Source of the DNA: a virus
Strand: one strand, 5' to 3'
IMG/VR virus record: IMGVR_UViG_3300030117_002802
Span: 1-24,904 of that record
Length of the DNA: 24,904 nucleotides
Positions within the stretch are counted from its first letter, which is position 1. Each line of letters starts with the position of its first letter. Below, piece after piece: positions 17,242-24,043 of the stretch. The notes beneath the pieces were generated by a model. The model did not search any database. It was not told where the DNA came from and was given only the letters and a program-made list of their open reading frames with translations. Position numbers and translations under genes: made by a program.

Positions 17242-18182
17242 GTTTCGTTCTCCAGTAGTTCTGGGGTATCACCCCTGTTGCAGAATTCACGCACGTCGCA
17301 GGTCGTACATCGTACAGGCTCAGGAGACTTCGGGAAATACCCGGCGCGCATGACCTCGACTCTTTCTGTCATGTCTGCCTTGATGCTGTCGATGCACTCT
17401 GTCTTGAAGTTCACGTCACGCAGGATGTTGTTGATTGGTCGGTCGTCGCCCTTGAAAAACGTCACCGCGTTTCCGCTAGCATCCTTGCAAGTCGTCTTGC
17501 GCTTGAACGGTGCTAGATAAGGCAGGTGGCACCAAAGCATCTGCGCGTTTTCTCCCAGGGATTCCCACTGGTCGAACGCCGGGAAGGTCATGACCGAACC
17601 CTCCAGTATTGCTAGCCAATACATAGCAAACTGCAGGTTGCGAGACAGGTACGCCCTGGTCGGCACCTCCTCACGGTACTTCCAGTCAATGCACAGAACT
17701 CGACCCCTGCCGTAACCGAACACATCGTCAGTGTCGCGGACCAGCAGATCTACGTGCGAGGCGTAGTTGACCTCGCCAATCGTGAGTCGGCAGGGCAGTT
17801 CAGTGCCTATCACGTCACACTTGTCGAACAACGGCATCAGCCTGGATTTGTAGGCCTCGACCACGGTCGTGACCTGACCGAGTATCGTGTCCCTGTTGCT
17901 GGCCACTGACTCGCTGGGTTCTCTGCCTTCAGTCGCAAGCTCGGCGACGAGGCTGGACCAGATCGTTTCGTAGTCGTGATCAGCTACGTCCCCTGAGAAG
18001 TGCAGCTTCTCCAGCGCCTTGCCAGCCAGCAGCCCACGAAACAGCGCGGTGGGCGCGACGGGCTCACTCTTGCCCTGATGCCTGAGCAGAACCTTGCGCA
18101 AGCACGGCTCCGTCAAATCGGTCGTGTGAACGTCGTTCATCATGATGGGCAACGATTTGCATTGATTCTCTGTACTTTGCAT
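17238..18182 (-). CDS. PD-(D/E)XK nuclease of the Cas4/RecB type with predicted iron-sulphur cluster
   Basis: A 314-residue protein if started at 18182. Starts at 18143 or 18140 are also possible, and none has a good ribosome binding site. Catalytic motifs: E128 in GTELPCRL, D145 in HVDLLVRD, the D-x-K of CIDWKYRE at 166-168, and Q184/Y188 of LQFAMYW. One cysteine near the N-terminus (C27, TEPCLRK) and three at the C-terminus (C292, C295, C301, CTTCDVREFC) form the four-cysteine 4Fe-4S arrangement of Cas4, AddB and related exonucleases. It probably resects DNA ends to make single strands for the RecT-like protein. The start region overlaps the helix-turn-helix gene by 80-119 bases, an unusually long overlap. 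Confidence 0.88.
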   Translation of the reverse strand: MQSTENQCKSLPIMMNDVHTTDLTEPCLRKVLLRHQGKSEPVAPTALFRGLLAGKALEKLHFSGDVADHDYETIWSSLVAELATEGREPSESVASNRDTILGQVTTVVEAYKSRLMPLFDKCDVIGTELPCRLTIGEVNYASHVDLLVRDTDDVFGYGRGRVLCIDWKYREEVPTRAYLSRNLQFAMYWLAILEGSVMTFPAFDQWESLGENAQMLWCHLPYLAPFKRKTTCKDASGNAVTFFKGDDRPINNILRDVNFKTECIDSIKADMTERVEVMRAGYFPKSPEPVRCTTCDVREFCNRGDTPELLENET

Positions 18183-18378
18183 CGATAGCCTGTTCTACCG
18201 CTTCGACGATGCGGTTCAGGGTTTTGGTTGTTGGGTTTGCTAGCTGGCCGGTCCTGTACAGGGAAAGGTTGGCGGGTGGCATGTTTGCTAGTTTGGCAAT
18301 CGTCGAGTACCTGATCCCGTAGATACTTACCGCTTCGTCAATTCTTGCACGCATCTCTGCGGCGGCGTCGATTTTCAT
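18064..18378 (-). CDS. small helix-turn-helix DNA-binding protein
   Basis: A 104-residue protein; the ATG at 18378 has AGGAG seven bases upstream, so the longer in-frame start at 18453 is not used. Residues ~10-60 (AEMRARIDEAVSIYGIRYST, IAKLANMPPANLSLYRTGQL, ANPTTKTLNRIVEAVEQAI) match a Cro/C1-type helix-turn-helix, with A-x-A-N-M-x3-x2-L-x2-[YW]-[RK]-x-G as second and recognition helices. The last 37 residues are read out of frame inside the nuclease gene and are His/Ser/Gln-rich. It is likely the early-operon regulator. The 21-base dyad at 18411-18431 upstream is a candidate operator. Confidence 0.8.
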   Translation of the reverse strand: MKIDAAAEMRARIDEAVSIYGIRYSTIAKLANMPPANLSLYRTGQLANPTTKTLNRIVEAVEQAIDAKYRESMQIVAHHDERRSHDRFDGAVLAQGSAQASGQE

Positions 18379-18410
18379 CGTCGAGTCTCCTTTGTCTGAA
18401 ACCGCGTGAT

Positions 18411-18431
18411 TGACCCTCTGGTATGCGCGGC
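18411..18431. promoter_or_regulatory. candidate operator dyad upstream of the helix-turn-helix gene
   Basis: CTGGT and ACCAG arms separated by 11 bases lie in the 75-base gap before the regulator gene, on the side of its ribosome binding site. The arms are short, so chance is not excluded. Confidence 0.3.
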
Positions 18432-18453
18432 CCACCAGTCCAAAAACACACAA

Positions 18454-19075: not shown

Positions 19076-19372
19076 TTAGCCATCAACTCTGTCGATGACG
19101 GCGGCGTACAGGGCGGACTCTTTCATGTCCGCGACGAAGTCCTTCTCCAACCACATCTGAATTGCATCGTGCGCGGAGGCGTTGAGCCTGTTCTCGCAGA
19201 GATCGACTGAGATGATCCTGTGGATAGACACGCCGGTCAGTTCCGTGTAACCGTCTTCGTGCTGCTCGCTGGAAATTTGTACTTCTGCCTTGATCTTCAA
19301 CTGTTGATTCTCAAGGTCGCAAACGTCACCAATCGTGATGATCAGTTCCGGGATTAGGGTGATGTTGTGCAT
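19076..19372 (-). CDS. early-operon protein of unknown function
   Basis: A 98-residue protein whose ATG overlaps the stop of the 30-residue membrane gene (TGATG). The ribosome binding site TACTGGAG lies inside the end of that gene. It opens MHNITLIPELIITIGDVCDL, with alternating beta-type stretches (QLKIKAEVQISS), then a helical end (AIQMWLEKDFVADMKESALY). No known motif. It is second in the early operon and therefore probably among the first phage proteins made. Confidence 0.75.
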   Translation of the reverse strand: MHNITLIPELIITIGDVCDLENQQLKIKAEVQISSEQHEDGYTELTGVSIHRIISVDLCENRLNASAHDAIQMWLEKDFVADMKESALYAAVIDRVDG

Positions 19373-19464
19373 CAGGTGCTCCAGTAGTAGGTCAGAATGG
19401 TGAAGGCAGTCAGTACGATTGCCGTGGAATACATGGCCATTCGTGTTGTAATCTTGACTCTCAT
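19372..19464 (-). CDS. 30-residue membrane peptide, leaderless first gene of the early operon
   Basis: The open frame reads MRVKITTRMAMYSTAIVLTA and continues FTILTYYWST, stop TGA. A basic N-terminus followed by an ~18-residue hydrophobic helix makes a single-span membrane peptide. The ATG is six bases below the -10 box of a consensus promoter, so translation would start at the 5' end of the transcript. Its stop overlaps the next ATG (TGATG). It may be a functional membrane peptide (for instance against superinfection) or chiefly a leader that couples the operon to leaderless initiation. Confidence 0.68.
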   Translation of the reverse strand: MRVKITTRMAMYSTAIVLTAFTILTYYWST

Positions 19465-19470
19465 GACAGC

Positions 19471-19499
19471 AATCTAACGTGTCTATACATGCATGTCAA
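19471..19499 (-). promoter_or_regulatory. sigma70-type promoter of the leftward early operon
   Basis: On the minus strand, TTGACA (19499-19494), a 17-base spacer and TAGATT (19476-19471). The -35 is perfect and the spacer optimal. The predicted transcription start falls at about 19464, the A of the first ATG, which implies a leaderless transcript. Confidence 0.85.
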
Positions 19500-19533
19500 C
19501 AGGATCACGCGGCAATGTTGGAGATTTTCTAAA

Positions 19534-19562
19534 TTGACACGGCTACCTCTACCTTGTATTAT
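19534..19562 (+). promoter_or_regulatory. sigma70-type promoter of the rightward gene
   Basis: TTGACA at 19534-19539, a 17-base spacer and TATTAT at 19557-19562. Six bases (acgggc) separate the -10 from an ATG at 19569, so the predicted +1 is the A of the start codon. It mirrors the divergent promoter at 19471-19499; the two -35 boxes are 34 bases apart. Confidence 0.88.
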
Positions 19563-19568
19563 ACGGGC

Positions 19569-20093
19569 ATGAACATCTTCGCAACCAACCACGATCCAGT
19601 GCAGGCTGCTGCTGACCTATGCGACAAGCACATCCCGAAGATGTGCGTGGAGACTGCGCAGATGCTGGCAGCAGCGCAGGTCAGGCACGGCAGGCCTCTG
19701 GACCAGATGCCCCTGACCCAGGCTGGCACGCCGTACAAAGGTGGATACAAAAGTCACCCCTGCACCCTGTGGTGTGGCGACAACTCGTCGAACTACATCT
19801 GGCTGGCCAGACACGGGCAGGAGCTGTGCAGGCAGTACACCATGCGGTTCGACAAGACCCACGCCTGCGCCGCACCCATCGATCAGCTTGCAGACATGAC
19901 TGACCTGCTGCCGGTTGGCTTGCTGACCCCGCACGCGCTGGCCATGCCTGACTGCTACAAACAGCCAGACCACGTCAGCTCGTACCGCAGCTACTACCGT
20001 GGCGAGAAGATGCACTTTGCACGGTGGGACCACGGCCCTGCGCCTGCGTGGCTCGGCATCTGTGGCGTCGTGTTTGTGCGCGAGGCCTGCTAG
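19569..20093 (+). CDS. conserved phage protein of unknown function, apparently leaderless
   Basis: A 174-residue protein starting MNIFATNHDPVQAAADLCDK. Landmarks: DKH...K-M-x-x-E-[TS]-A-Q-[ML]-L at residues 19-35, YKGGYKSHPCTLW, NSSNYIWLARHG, LCRQYTMRF, LTPHALAMPDCYK and YRSYYRGEKMHFARW. I recall this order (MNIF-[VA]-T-[DN], DKH-x-x-KM, HPC-x-x-W, AMP-x-x-Y-K, Y-R-x-YY) from many phage and bacterial genes, sometimes labelled as DNA-repair-like. I cannot support that label from the sequence. Conserved His, Cys, Asp and Tyr suggest an enzyme. The ATG at 19569 is chosen over an in-frame TTG at 19554, which would lie inside the promoter. Confidence 0.85.
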   Translation: MNIFATNHDPVQAAADLCDKHIPKMCVETAQMLAAAQVRHGRPLDQMPLTQAGTPYKGGYKSHPCTLWCGDNSSNYIWLARHGQELCRQYTMRFDKTHACAAPIDQLADMTDLLPVGLLTPHALAMPDCYKQPDHVSSYRSYYRGEKMHFARWDHGPAPAWLGICGVVFVREAC

Positions 20094-20265
20094 TCGCCCG
20101 GCTACAACGAACGTCACTATCATCGCCCGCGCCATCGGGCACGCCATCTGGCCAGGTGTCGTCGTCGCCCTGGGTCAGCCGGTTCTGCTAGCAGGGCGAG
20201 CCACCTGGCTGACTAGCGCCATCCCCAGGGGAACGTGCGACGCTAGCACCATATCCAGGTAGGCC

Positions 20266-20296
20266 AAAAAAAACCCCCGACCACGAGGGCCGGGGG
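20266..20296 (-). terminator. rho-independent terminator of the AAA+/VWA unit
   Basis: On the minus strand, a 9-base-pair stem (CCCCCGGCC / GGTCGGGGG, one G-U) with a 5-base loop is followed by eight T. It lies 20 bases beyond the stop of the 35-residue membrane peptide. In the opposite direction there is no T-run, so it would not stop the rightward 19.57 kb transcript efficiently. Confidence 0.92.
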
Positions 20297-20316
20297 CGTG
20301 GGTTGCGGTTGGTTTG

Positions 20317-20424
20317 CTAGCCGCCGCGCAGGGCGACGAGCAGCAGGAAGAACAGGGCGGTGAACCAAGGCAAGGCGGTCAGCAGCCAGTGTGGCCGGTC
20401 GCCGTCGTATCGGGGTGGCATCAT
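20317..20424 (-). CDS. 35-residue membrane peptide, last gene of the AAA+/VWA unit
   Basis: The ATG at 20424 overlaps the stop of the preceding gene (ATGA) and has GAGGTG eight bases upstream. The product opens MMPPRYDGDRPHWLLTALPW and continues FTALFFLLLVALRGG, one membrane helix preceded by a Pro/Arg-rich end. A longer frame back to 20556 would run through the upstream gene and is rejected. It may anchor the AAA+/VWA complex at the membrane or be independent; unknown. Confidence 0.72.
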   Translation of the reverse strand: MMPPRYDGDRPHWLLTALPWFTALFFLLLVALRGG

Positions 20425-20843
20425 TGTGAGCACCTCATGTCCCTGACCTGAACCTCGCCGTCCACGTCGTACCAGCCGGAGAGGAGCGGCTCGTCGAACG
20501 TGCGCGCTTCGCAGGCGTGCATGGTGGTCCATGCCATCGCCGCCCAGAGTGCGCACACTTCATCGATGTGGTTGGTGCGCTCCTCGGCGTGATGCACGAA
20601 GAACGAAACACTGAACCCGTCCTGATTGTCCGGCGGGCAGCCGACGTGCGACAGCTTGAAGTGTAGTCCGCGCGGCGGGTCAGGGAACGCCTGCGTTCCC
20701 TCGGGTGCATCGAGTTGCATGTCGGTGAGTCGGTCCTTGATCAGATACATGGCCTGATCCAGGCCTCGCATGATCTCGTCATCGGTCGGCGGGAATTGAC
20801 TGGCGGCGATGATCAGGGTGACGGTCTGTACTTCGGTGTTCAT
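20421..20843 (-). CDS. protein of unknown function in the AAA+/VWA unit
   Basis: A 140-residue protein. The ATG at 20843 is chosen because ACTGGAG stands six bases upstream; the frame is open further back only through the leader and VWA gene end. Opens MNTEVQTVTLIIAASQFPPT, followed by helix-rich DDEIMRGLDQAMYLIKD, a strand RGLHFKLSHVG, then VSFFVHHAEERTNHIDEV and W-containing helices (ALWAAMAWTTMHA), ending in beta-type strands. No recognised domain. Constant association with the VWA and AAA+ genes would suggest a partner or substrate adaptor; that cannot be tested from one window. Confidence 0.75.
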   Translation of the reverse strand: MNTEVQTVTLIIAASQFPPTDDEIMRGLDQAMYLIKDRLTDMQLDAPEGTQAFPDPPRGLHFKLSHVGCPPDNQDGFSVSFFVHHAEERTNHIDEVCALWAAMAWTTMHACEARTFDEPLLSGWYDVDGEVQVRDMRCSQ

Positions 20844-20871
20844 TGTTGTCTCCAGTTGCAGGTTGGAAGGG

Positions 20872-22032
20872 TCAGGCGCGGATGGATTCCGCGCGCTCGA
20901 TTGTACTCTGAATCGCACGTGCGATGGAGTGGATTGCATGGGTCAGGTTGGTAGTCGCATCGACGGTGCGGTCGCCGAAGATGTCAGCGGCGACTCTGGC
21001 ATCGGAGCCGTTGGCGAGCACGGCCAGCCACGACTCGCATGATGCAGAGTCGCGCAGGTAGCGTCGGCAGTGCGAGACGGTGCTCGGCTCGAAGCACGCG
21101 TCGGTGATGCAGATGCCGACGATAGCGTCGCGCGATGCTAGCGCGTGCTGGTACGCGGGCTGCTCGCGCAACATCGGGATGGCCAGCTCCAGCTTGTCGG
21201 TGCCCTTCCCGATGGGCTCGTGCTGGGCGAAGTAAGCATCGAAGTCGTGCGGCGGGTCGATCAGCCGGGCGCTATTGCCGAACAGGCATACGTCCATCGT
21301 GATCTCTGGTCGGTCTGCGATGACCGAACGCACGGCGTCGGTGATGCAGTGAGCGATGAATGCGTTGGTGCCGCCCGATCCAGAGTACGCCGCGAGGTGG
21401 CCCATCGAGCCGCTAGCATCGACGGCTAGCATGATGTGCACGCGGCCCGGCGCGTCGGGCACGCACTGCTGCGAGAATGGATGGTCGGAGCCGATGGCGA
21501 CGTTGACCGCGTCGCGACCGCGCAGGCGACCGGAGTCGTGGCCGGATGCGTAGCCGGACAGGTCCGCGTCCTCGAACGCTAGCCGGTCGGCTAGCACTGC
21601 CGACAGGCGGGACGAGATGCGATGGTGGTGCTGCCGCCACTTGTCATCCCACGACGTGTCCATCGCGGCATCGGTGAATTGCTTGAGCGATGCCTCCAGA
21701 TCGGCGAGCGCGTCGCCGTCGCTGGTCTTCTCGATGGGCGCGCTGTCAGGCGGGGCGTCGGTGCCGTCGCCCTGATCGGTGCCGGGCTGGTCACCGTCAG
21801 CCTCGACAGGGGAGCCGTCGCCGTCAGGCGCGTCGGCCTCGTCAGGCGCGTCGGCGTCGTCGGTACCTGGACTATCGGGTACCTCGGGTGCCGGGGGCGT
21901 GGTGGCATCGTCGCCAGTCAGGGAGGCGGCGAGCAGTCGGGTGATCTCGTAGGCGACCTGCTGCGCGGCGAGCTTCTCACCGGCAGCCATGTGCGCGTCG
22001 TACTCAGTGGTCAGGTCAGAAAGTGATCGCAT
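20872..22032 (-). CDS. CobT-like VWA-domain protein
   Basis: A 386-residue protein; ACTGGAG lies nine bases before the ATG. An N-terminal helical segment is followed by a long acidic, Asp/Pro/Ala/Gly-rich linker (residues ~41-107), as in the CobT/BchD family. A VWA domain follows with an intact MIDAS: LAVDASGSM (D205, S207, S209), T278 in GKGTDKLE and D311 in GICITDA. This fold binds a divalent metal and a partner AAA+ protein. In bacteria CobT works with CobS in cobalt insertion; phage relatives exist. No CobN-like chelatase is present here, so cobalamin synthesis is not implied. Confidence 0.88.
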   Translation of the reverse strand: MRSLSDLTTEYDAHMAAGEKLAAQQVAYEITRLLAASLTGDDATTPPAPEVPDSPGTDDADAPDEADAPDGDGSPVEADGDQPGTDQGDGTDAPPDSAPIEKTSDGDALADLEASLKQFTDAAMDTSWDDKWRQHHHRISSRLSAVLADRLAFEDADLSGYASGHDSGRLRGRDAVNVAIGSDHPFSQQCVPDAPGRVHIMLAVDASGSMGHLAAYSGSGGTNAFIAHCITDAVRSVIADRPEITMDVCLFGNSARLIDPPHDFDAYFAQHEPIGKGTDKLELAIPMLREQPAYQHALASRDAIVGICITDACFEPSTVSHCRRYLRDSASCESWLAVLANGSDARVAADIFGDRTVDATTNLTHAIHSIARAIQSTIERAESIRA

Positions 22033-22060
22033 GATCGTGGTCTCCAGTAGTAGGGGTGAG

Positions 22061-23620
22061 TCAGTCGGCGAGTGCGATGAGGCGGGACGTGGCGGCTGCG
22101 CGCTCCGTATCGTCGTGGTAGCAGTCCACGACCGCGAGCTTGCAGGCGCGTGCTACGGGCAGGCCCTCGGCGACCATGCGCGCTGCGCAGACCGACTTGC
22201 GCGTGCTGGCCGCGCTGCTGACTGCGCCGCCGGTCAGCTTCCCTGACTCGCTGCGCGTCCACGTTGCCAACTTGCTGATCACGTCGGCGTCGGGCTTGCT
22301 GATCCCGGTGCACGCGGTCAGCAGCTTGCACTCCTGAGACGCGGTCAGGTAGTCCACGCGCACGGTGCAGTCGGCGCGGTTGACGAACGCGTCGTCCATC
22401 CGCTGCGCGCCTCGGTAGCTCGCGCCGATGTTAGCAGTCATCACGATGACCACGTTGCTGGCGCAGCGCACTTCGATGGGCTTGCCATCGCCGTCGAGCA
22501 CGCAGTCGATGCGAGCGGTGCCGCGCCCGTCGAGGATCGAGAAGAGCGAGTTGAGCACCTTGGGGTGCGCGCGGTTGACCTCGTCGAGGATGACCACCGC
22601 GTCGGTGGTCGCGAGTGCTTCGGTCATCGCCGAGGGGACGAACCGGGTCGTGCCTGACTCAGCGATCATCGCGCCGAATGCGTCGGTCGGTTCGACCAGT
22701 TGCGTGCAGTCGATGGTGATGGCCGGGCGCTTGCGCGTCGCGGCGTAGTGGTTCGCGCCTTCGGTCTTGCCGCAGCCGGTCGGGCCGGTGACCAGCAGGT
22801 TCTTGCGGCTACCGGCGGCGTGCGCAAGGTCCAGGGCCTCGAACGCGTCGTGCCACGCCGACCCCGGCGGCACGCAGAAGTGCGGGTTGCTGGCAGGCAC
22901 GTCGAACGCGGCGGTCGCGACGTGCGCCTTCCCGGTTACCACTGGCGCTGGCGTCGGCGCGAGGTCGGCGACCAGAGCATCGAGGTCGATGTCGATGGCT
23001 GCGAGCACGGCGCGTGCGCGTGCTGCCTCGTCGGGGACTGCCGGGGTCGCGGCGACACGACTAGCGGGCTCGGGTTCTGCCGGTGTCGCGGCGGTGGTGC
23101 TGATCTCGCTGAGGTCGAGGGACGGCTTGGCTGCCGGGGTCGATTCCTTCCCGTGCGGGTAGTCGTAGACCGGGTGGTCGGACAGGTAGGAGGTCACAAT
23201 CGTGCGAGCGCGGCGCACGGTCAGGGACGTAGCAGCGACCCGGTCGGTCAGCGGCGTGATGCACTTCATATCCTCGCAGTTAAGGACGTACTTGCGATAG
23301 GCAGCCGACTTGGTCAGGCCTTCGTTGGTGCACATCTCGTCGATGGTGTCGACCGCACGGCTAGCTTCGATGGCCCGCTGCCGGATGAGGCTAGCGTCGG
23401 CCCTGCGGGCGGCCTCGACGTACACGTCCTCGAAGTGGTCGTTGCGGCGCTTGCTGACCGTGATGCGGTCGTCGTCGCCGAGGGTGATCAGGCAGTCGCT
23501 CGCCTTGCCACGGTCGGCATGGCGGCCATGGATCACGCCGGGCTTGGCGCTGTTCTGCCACCAGTCGATAGCGTAGAAGGGGTCGTGGGTCAGGGGGAGG
23601 GGTCCAGTAGTAGAAGACAT
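22061..23620 (-). CDS. MoxR/CobS-like AAA+ ATPase with an extended N-terminus
   Basis: A 519-residue protein. The ATG at 23620 has CTACTGGAG nine bases upstream; an in-frame extension to 23899 is low-complexity, lacks a ribosome binding site and is not used. Residues 1-150 form an unrecognised domain (HDPFYAIDWW, GVIHGRHADRGK, FEDVYVEAARRAD). A Pro/Ala linker (~160-230) leads to the AAA+ core: Walker A GPTGCGKT at 279-286, Walker B VVILDEVNR at 342-350, sensor 1 MTANIG at 394-399 and AFVNRADC near 411-418. CobS/MoxR proteins form hexameric rings that act with a VWA partner, here the next gene 28 bases downstream. It probably remodels a protein, but the target is unknown. Confidence 0.9.
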   Translation of the reverse strand: MSSTTGPLPLTHDPFYAIDWWQNSAKPGVIHGRHADRGKASDCLITLGDDDRITVSKRRNDHFEDVYVEAARRADASLIRQRAIEASRAVDTIDEMCTNEGLTKSAAYRKYVLNCEDMKCITPLTDRVAATSLTVRRARTIVTSYLSDHPVYDYPHGKESTPAAKPSLDLSEISTTAATPAEPEPASRVAATPAVPDEAARARAVLAAIDIDLDALVADLAPTPAPVVTGKAHVATAAFDVPASNPHFCVPPGSAWHDAFEALDLAHAAGSRKNLLVTGPTGCGKTEGANHYAATRKRPAITIDCTQLVEPTDAFGAMIAESGTTRFVPSAMTEALATTDAVVILDEVNRAHPKVLNSLFSILDGRGTARIDCVLDGDGKPIEVRCASNVVIVMTANIGASYRGAQRMDDAFVNRADCTVRVDYLTASQECKLLTACTGISKPDADVISKLATWTRSESGKLTGGAVSSAASTRKSVCAARMVAEGLPVARACKLAVVDCYHDDTERAAATSRLIALAD

Positions 23621-23762
23621 AGGTGTCTGCTCCAGTAGCTGCCCGGCTTCCACTGCGGAAGTCCGGGGTGACCGTGCTACTGGGGGGGGTCGTGGCATGG
23701 TGCCGGGTGCCATCTCACTGTGAGCAGGAACACCGTGACCGGCCAGTAGCAGGGCCGTCGTC

Positions 23763-23771
23763 ATTGTACCA
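23763..23771 (-). promoter_or_regulatory. possible extended -10 promoter of the AAA+/VWA unit
   Basis: TGG-TACAAT on the minus strand matches an extended -10 (TGn-TATAAT, one mismatch). No good -35 is seen. A start near 23756 would give a leader of about 135 bases. Confidence 0.3.
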
Positions 23772-23924
23772 CAGGCTGGGGTGGCTGACCTGACCGGGGT
23801 GGTACCAGTTTGTCCAGGACTACGTGCAGAATCGGGGCTGGCGATAGTGCTAGGGGGGATACCGGATCCCGTAGCACCTCCCCTGATCCCACCCCCCACG
23901 TAGCATCGGACCCCCGGCTAGCAG

Positions 23925-23948
23925 CTAGCACCGGCGGCGGTCTGCTAG
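23925..23948. repeat. inverted repeat in the divergent control region
   Basis: CTAGCA and TGCTAG arms are exact inverted copies separated by 12 bases (ccggcggcggtc). An extra GGCTAGCA lies directly before the left arm. A dyad of this spacing could be an operator. Confidence 0.55.
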
Positions 23949-24043
23949 TAGCACGGCGCCCGGCAGGCGGGTACTATCATGCGTAGCGCGGCGTGCGCAG
24001 GGCCTCCGAGATTTGGACCACACCCCGCCGGTCGGCTGGTTTC

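Follow-up and report, generated by a model that had tools for sequence, protein, structure and literature searches.

The window analyzed here is the whole 24,904-nt stretch of an environmental IMG/VR virus record. Its features around a divergent promoter region are listed below by coordinates and strand.

19076..19372, minus strand: 98-aa gene, the first Shine-Dalgarno (SD)-led gene of the leftward operon
19372..19464, minus strand: 30-codon open reading frame (ORF) encoding a small peptide that, judging by its sequence, probably spans the membrane; the stop codon of the ORF overlaps the following start (TGATG)
19379..19382, minus strand: SD-like GGAG of the 98-aa gene, within the peptide ORF and six bases before the 98-aa ATG
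19465..19470, minus strand: six-base gap GCTGTC with C at -1; predicted transcription start at A19464
19471..19476, minus strand: -10 box TAGATT of the leftward promoter, 17-nt spacer
19494..19499, minus strand: -35 box TTGACA of the leftward promoter
19500..19533, no strand: 34-bp stretch separating the two -35 boxes, with no visible repeated operator
19534..19539, plus strand: -35 box TTGACA of the rightward promoter
19557..19562, plus strand: -10 box TATTAT of the rightward promoter, 17-nt spacer
19563..19568, plus strand: six-base gap ACGGGC with C at -1; predicted transcription start at A19569
19569..20093, plus strand: 174-aa phrog_624/Pyr_excise-like gene, its start set by the conserved N-terminal MNIF (homology)
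20273..20297, minus strand: terminator-like hairpin ending the leftward operon that is convergent with the 174-aa gene

The boxes and spacings were read directly from the sequence and bear out the preliminary description of two divergent promoters with 17-nt spacers and six-base gaps to an ATG. These two promoters were the only sites with at least 10 of 12 promoter consensus matches in the 24.9-kb window, and the only promoter-ATG pairs with a gap of 0-30 nt before an ORF of at least 30 aa. In dinucleotide shuffles, starts with a gap of exactly six bases (ORF of at least 30 codons) occurred at a mean of 0.01 per shuffled sequence, and two such starts were found in 0 of 200. On both strands, the hallmarks of a leaderless sigma-70 start were found, including a -10 box 5-8 nt upstream of the start with a matching -35 box, an ATG start codon, no SD upstream, and a pyrimidine at -1 followed by a purine at +1 (C/A). 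SD-like 4-mers, which precede about half of the listed ORFs of the window, were absent at the 19464 and 19569 starts. Because each -10 box lies six bases from the ATG, each transcript is expected to start with its own start codon, leaving no ribosome-binding leader. In the minimum-energy folds of the predicted mRNAs, the first 12 bases (right) and 27 bases (left) were unpaired.

An operator common to both promoters was considered and rejected, as ACATGCATGT has a single occurrence, its frequency is close to the chance expectation, and no direct repeats were found. The G+C content climbs from approximately 52% to 62-68% at the divergent region (window 19500-24000), and this right block also harbors an AAA ATPase as well as a 386-aa gene in which a vWA-like motif was recognized by eye.

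The 174-aa protein matched phrog_624 (E 1.7e-53) and the Pfam model PF03013 (Pyr_excise) with 36.2 bits, above the curated cut-off of 23. Proteins matching these models are found in cyanophages, pelagiphages, vibriophages, and others, and share with the window protein the MNIF N-terminus. In 201 representatives of the family, the N-terminus read MN(I/L/V)F, with N2 and F4 in all and I3 in 195. Since the relatives begin with MNIF, the ATG at 19569 is secure as the start by homology. Annotations of the family name either a DNA-binding protein or a pyrimidine dimer glycosylase. In the T4 pyrimidine dimer glycosylase, the nucleophile is the amine of the N-terminal threonine (PMC3285167), whereas residue 2 was Asn in 201/201 representatives; the search pattern for these already required Asn2, and unselected homologues show it too. 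The glycosylase label of the phrog_624 protein is therefore doubtful. The predicted structure (pLDDT 91) matched viral predicted structures, and no significant PDB match to the family was found by sequence or by fold. Among the named phages fetched with a phrog_624 gene, this gene was mostly operonic or behind a leader, unlike in the window, and phage S-H34 may have a weak leaderless box upstream of it (TAGGAT, gap 6, no clear -35). In Roseobacter phage CRP-810 (L209), a CobT-annotated gene lies two genes upstream of the phrog_624 gene, in a neighborhood possibly like the right block of the window.

IMG/VR viral contigs were scanned with a pattern of TTGACA, 16-18 bases, TANNNT, 0-30 bases, and an MNIF start. 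Among the 120 matches listed, the gap was 6 in 47 and 7 in 17. Among the matches listed with a consensus promoter within 30 nt, and with identical promoter stretches removed, a gap of 5-8 was found in 56 of 82 phrog_624-like starts (mode 6) versus 27 of 84 MKKI-start controls from the same scan (Fisher p 5e-6, an optimistic value because related contigs are not fully independent). SD-like 4-mers, again among the matches listed, were present at 1/56 starts with a gap of 5-8 versus 10/21 with a gap of at least 15. The MKKI control also peaked at gap 6, indicating that leaderless geometry is general in these viral contigs and enriched in the phrog_624 family. Leaderless use specific to phrog_624 was thus ruled out, as non-family genes peaked at the same gap as well, only less: among 700 non-family promoter-ATG pairs from all fetched loci, gap 6 was found in 75, gap 5 in 15, and gap 7 in 28, with a second broad hump at gaps 24-34.

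Searches by homology and by protein pattern gave further cases. Of the 80 loci retained after searching by homology, four had strong leaderless geometry (L013, L054, and L079 with gap 6; L004 with gap 7), and in many others the gene was in an operon, often with an SD-like sequence. A promoter-blind scan with the family pattern returned 120 stretches; 111 were newly fetched and scored, giving 3 leaderless and 12 leadered promoters at a threshold that overlooks some leaderless loci (e.g., L410, by eye), and most of these promoter-blind relatives had no nearby consensus promoter. The re-listed loci L083, L085, L086, and L088 were leaderless too. All 105 leaderless-class relatives started with ATG (105/105), which is weak evidence since most relatives were fetched with an ATG pattern. 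The same spacing before relatives of the rightward gene in many other viruses supports a real design.

The base just before the ATG was biased as well. A pyrimidine was found there in 49/53 gap-6 relatives versus 128/227 non-leaderless relatives (p 2e-7), and, among non-family genes, in 60/75 with gap 6 versus 273/504 with a gap of at least 12 (p 2e-5). RNA polymerase usually favors a pyrimidine at -1 followed by a purine at +1, and such a bias is expected if transcription starts at the A of the ATG. Non-leaderless genes of some bacteria also show a pyrimidine before the start codon (PMC3160421).

Clustering at 50% protein identity gave 61 clusters, 21 of them with a leaderless member, and on a FastTree phylogeny of 201 representatives the leaderless label changed 24 times, with at least 8 changes forced by well-supported branches; as the set was enriched by promoter-based fetching of members, these figures measure recurrence, not prevalence. 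They indicate that leaderless geometry recurs and is not inherited from the nearest relatives. Those nearest to the window by sequence were mostly operonic, which rules out inheritance of a leaderless promoter from close relatives. The six-base gap, for which conservation in related genomes had been proposed as a check, was found in many relatives, but the closest ones are mostly in operons. A divergent pair of starts with gaps of 5-8 occurred in the window alone among 513 loci (4.4 Mb), a non-random sample in which many loci were fetched for holding one promoter. The arrangement had been called unusual, and this applies to the mirror pair, whereas single leaderless promoters are common in viral contigs. 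Named phages near the leaderless contigs gave no matches, or short or partial matches only.

On the leftward side, the ATG opens MRVKITTRMAMYSTAIVLTAFTILTYYWST, a 30-residue peptide whose charged N-terminus leads into a hydrophobic stretch, and its stop overlaps the start of the next gene by one base. This half is less secure than the rightward one, since the 98-aa gene has its own SD and no relatives of it were detected in viral_contigs; relatives of the 314-aa exonuclease-like gene were likewise not found there. The leftward half of the preliminary description, a membrane peptide coupled to the early operon, is the weaker one: coupling and a plain leader are both conceivable, and the early timing is putative.

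We consider it probable, from the sequence and its comparison, that a tailed phage here has a compact, divergent regulatory region giving two leaderless messages, with a one-gene unit on the right and a peptide coupled to an operon on the left. Two host-type sigma-70 promoters would act back to back, and at each of them RNA polymerase would start on the A of the ATG. Both mRNAs would carry a 5'-terminal AUG without SD and would be translated via the known 5'-AUG-dependent route. The rightward message would yield the phrog_624 protein. On the leftward message, ribosomes would load on the 5' AUG and read the peptide first, and coupling through the TGATG overlap together with the internal GGAG would lead into the SD-led operon of exonuclease, RecT-like, and helicase genes, possibly early in infection. 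The earlier proposal of leaderless use is partly supported overall, the comparative support being the gap-6 peak, the repeated changes on the tree, and the pyrimidine/A bias.

It is also conceivable, but unlikely, that only the rightward promoter is leaderless and that the leftward transcript provides an untranslated leader of ~90 nt to the 98-aa gene, the 30-codon ORF being incidental. The GGAG six bases upstream of the 98-aa ATG and the lack of relatives of this gene in viral_contigs would fit such a leader, and an ATG at one given position has a chance of ~1 in 64. This reading would require the exact gap of six, the C at -1, the 30-codon frame with its one-base overlap, and the charged-then-hydrophobic peptide to coincide, and starts with this exact gap were rare in shuffles. 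More improbable still is that both gaps are coincidental, so that transcription starts elsewhere or the TA-like signals belong to a different SD-less mode of initiation on short leaders, for instance binding by S1 or a dipyrimidine signal. Bacteria are indeed known to have leadered genes that lack an SD, and a dipyrimidine conserved ahead of start codons (PMC3160421; PMC5397173). However, a signal for translation alone would not be expected to produce full -35/-10 promoters with 16-18-nt spacing and a sharp gap-6 peak, and within the phrog_624 family the pyrimidine bias was stronger in gap-6 than in non-leaderless members.

A few bacteria have been well studied for leaderless translation, and lambda is the classical case. 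The mRNA of the lambda repressor cI is leaderless and comes from one leaderless promoter of the repressor switch. As in the window, where this is predicted, a phage gene has an mRNA that begins at the AUG; lambda has one such promoter at cI, whereas the window has two, one for a phrog_624 gene and one for a small peptide. Lambda is given as the first leaderless case in the survey of Zheng et al. (2011, PMC3160421), in which bacterial "TA-led" genes carry a TANNNT box ~12 bp upstream of the start. In these genes, as proposed for the window, a sigma-70 -10 box makes the transcription start coincide with the start codon and no SD is present; that survey covered bacterial and archaeal genomes, whereas the present sites are in viral contigs and two of them face away from each other. 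Leaderless translation depends on a 5' AUG and IF2, and GUG or UUG is no substitute at the 5' end (PMC4611024). No paper on leaderless use together with cyanophages or marine-phage start mapping was found in a literature search with little coverage of subscription journals. Tentatively, leaderless promoters might be a regular, repeatedly evolved means of single-gene expression in environmental phages, and the window might be a paired version in opposite directions under shared control. The gap-6 peak in viral contigs is a simple sequence rule that can be tested by 5'-end mapping, and it would aid gene callers in placing start codons without SD.

Two further observations were made. A 129-aa protein encoded at window 18064-18453 (minus strand) looked like a helix-turn-helix repressor by eye and had no Pfam, PHROG, or NCBIfam match. 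In L194, an uncultivated 14.4-kb contig with a DUF932-like protein among its ORFs, about half of the listed plus-strand ORFs carried a TA...T box located 5-8 bases upstream of the ATG (ATGs at 209, 1251, 2151, 2742, 3154, 4770, 5963, 6915, and 12676), several of these boxes with a TTGAC-like -35.
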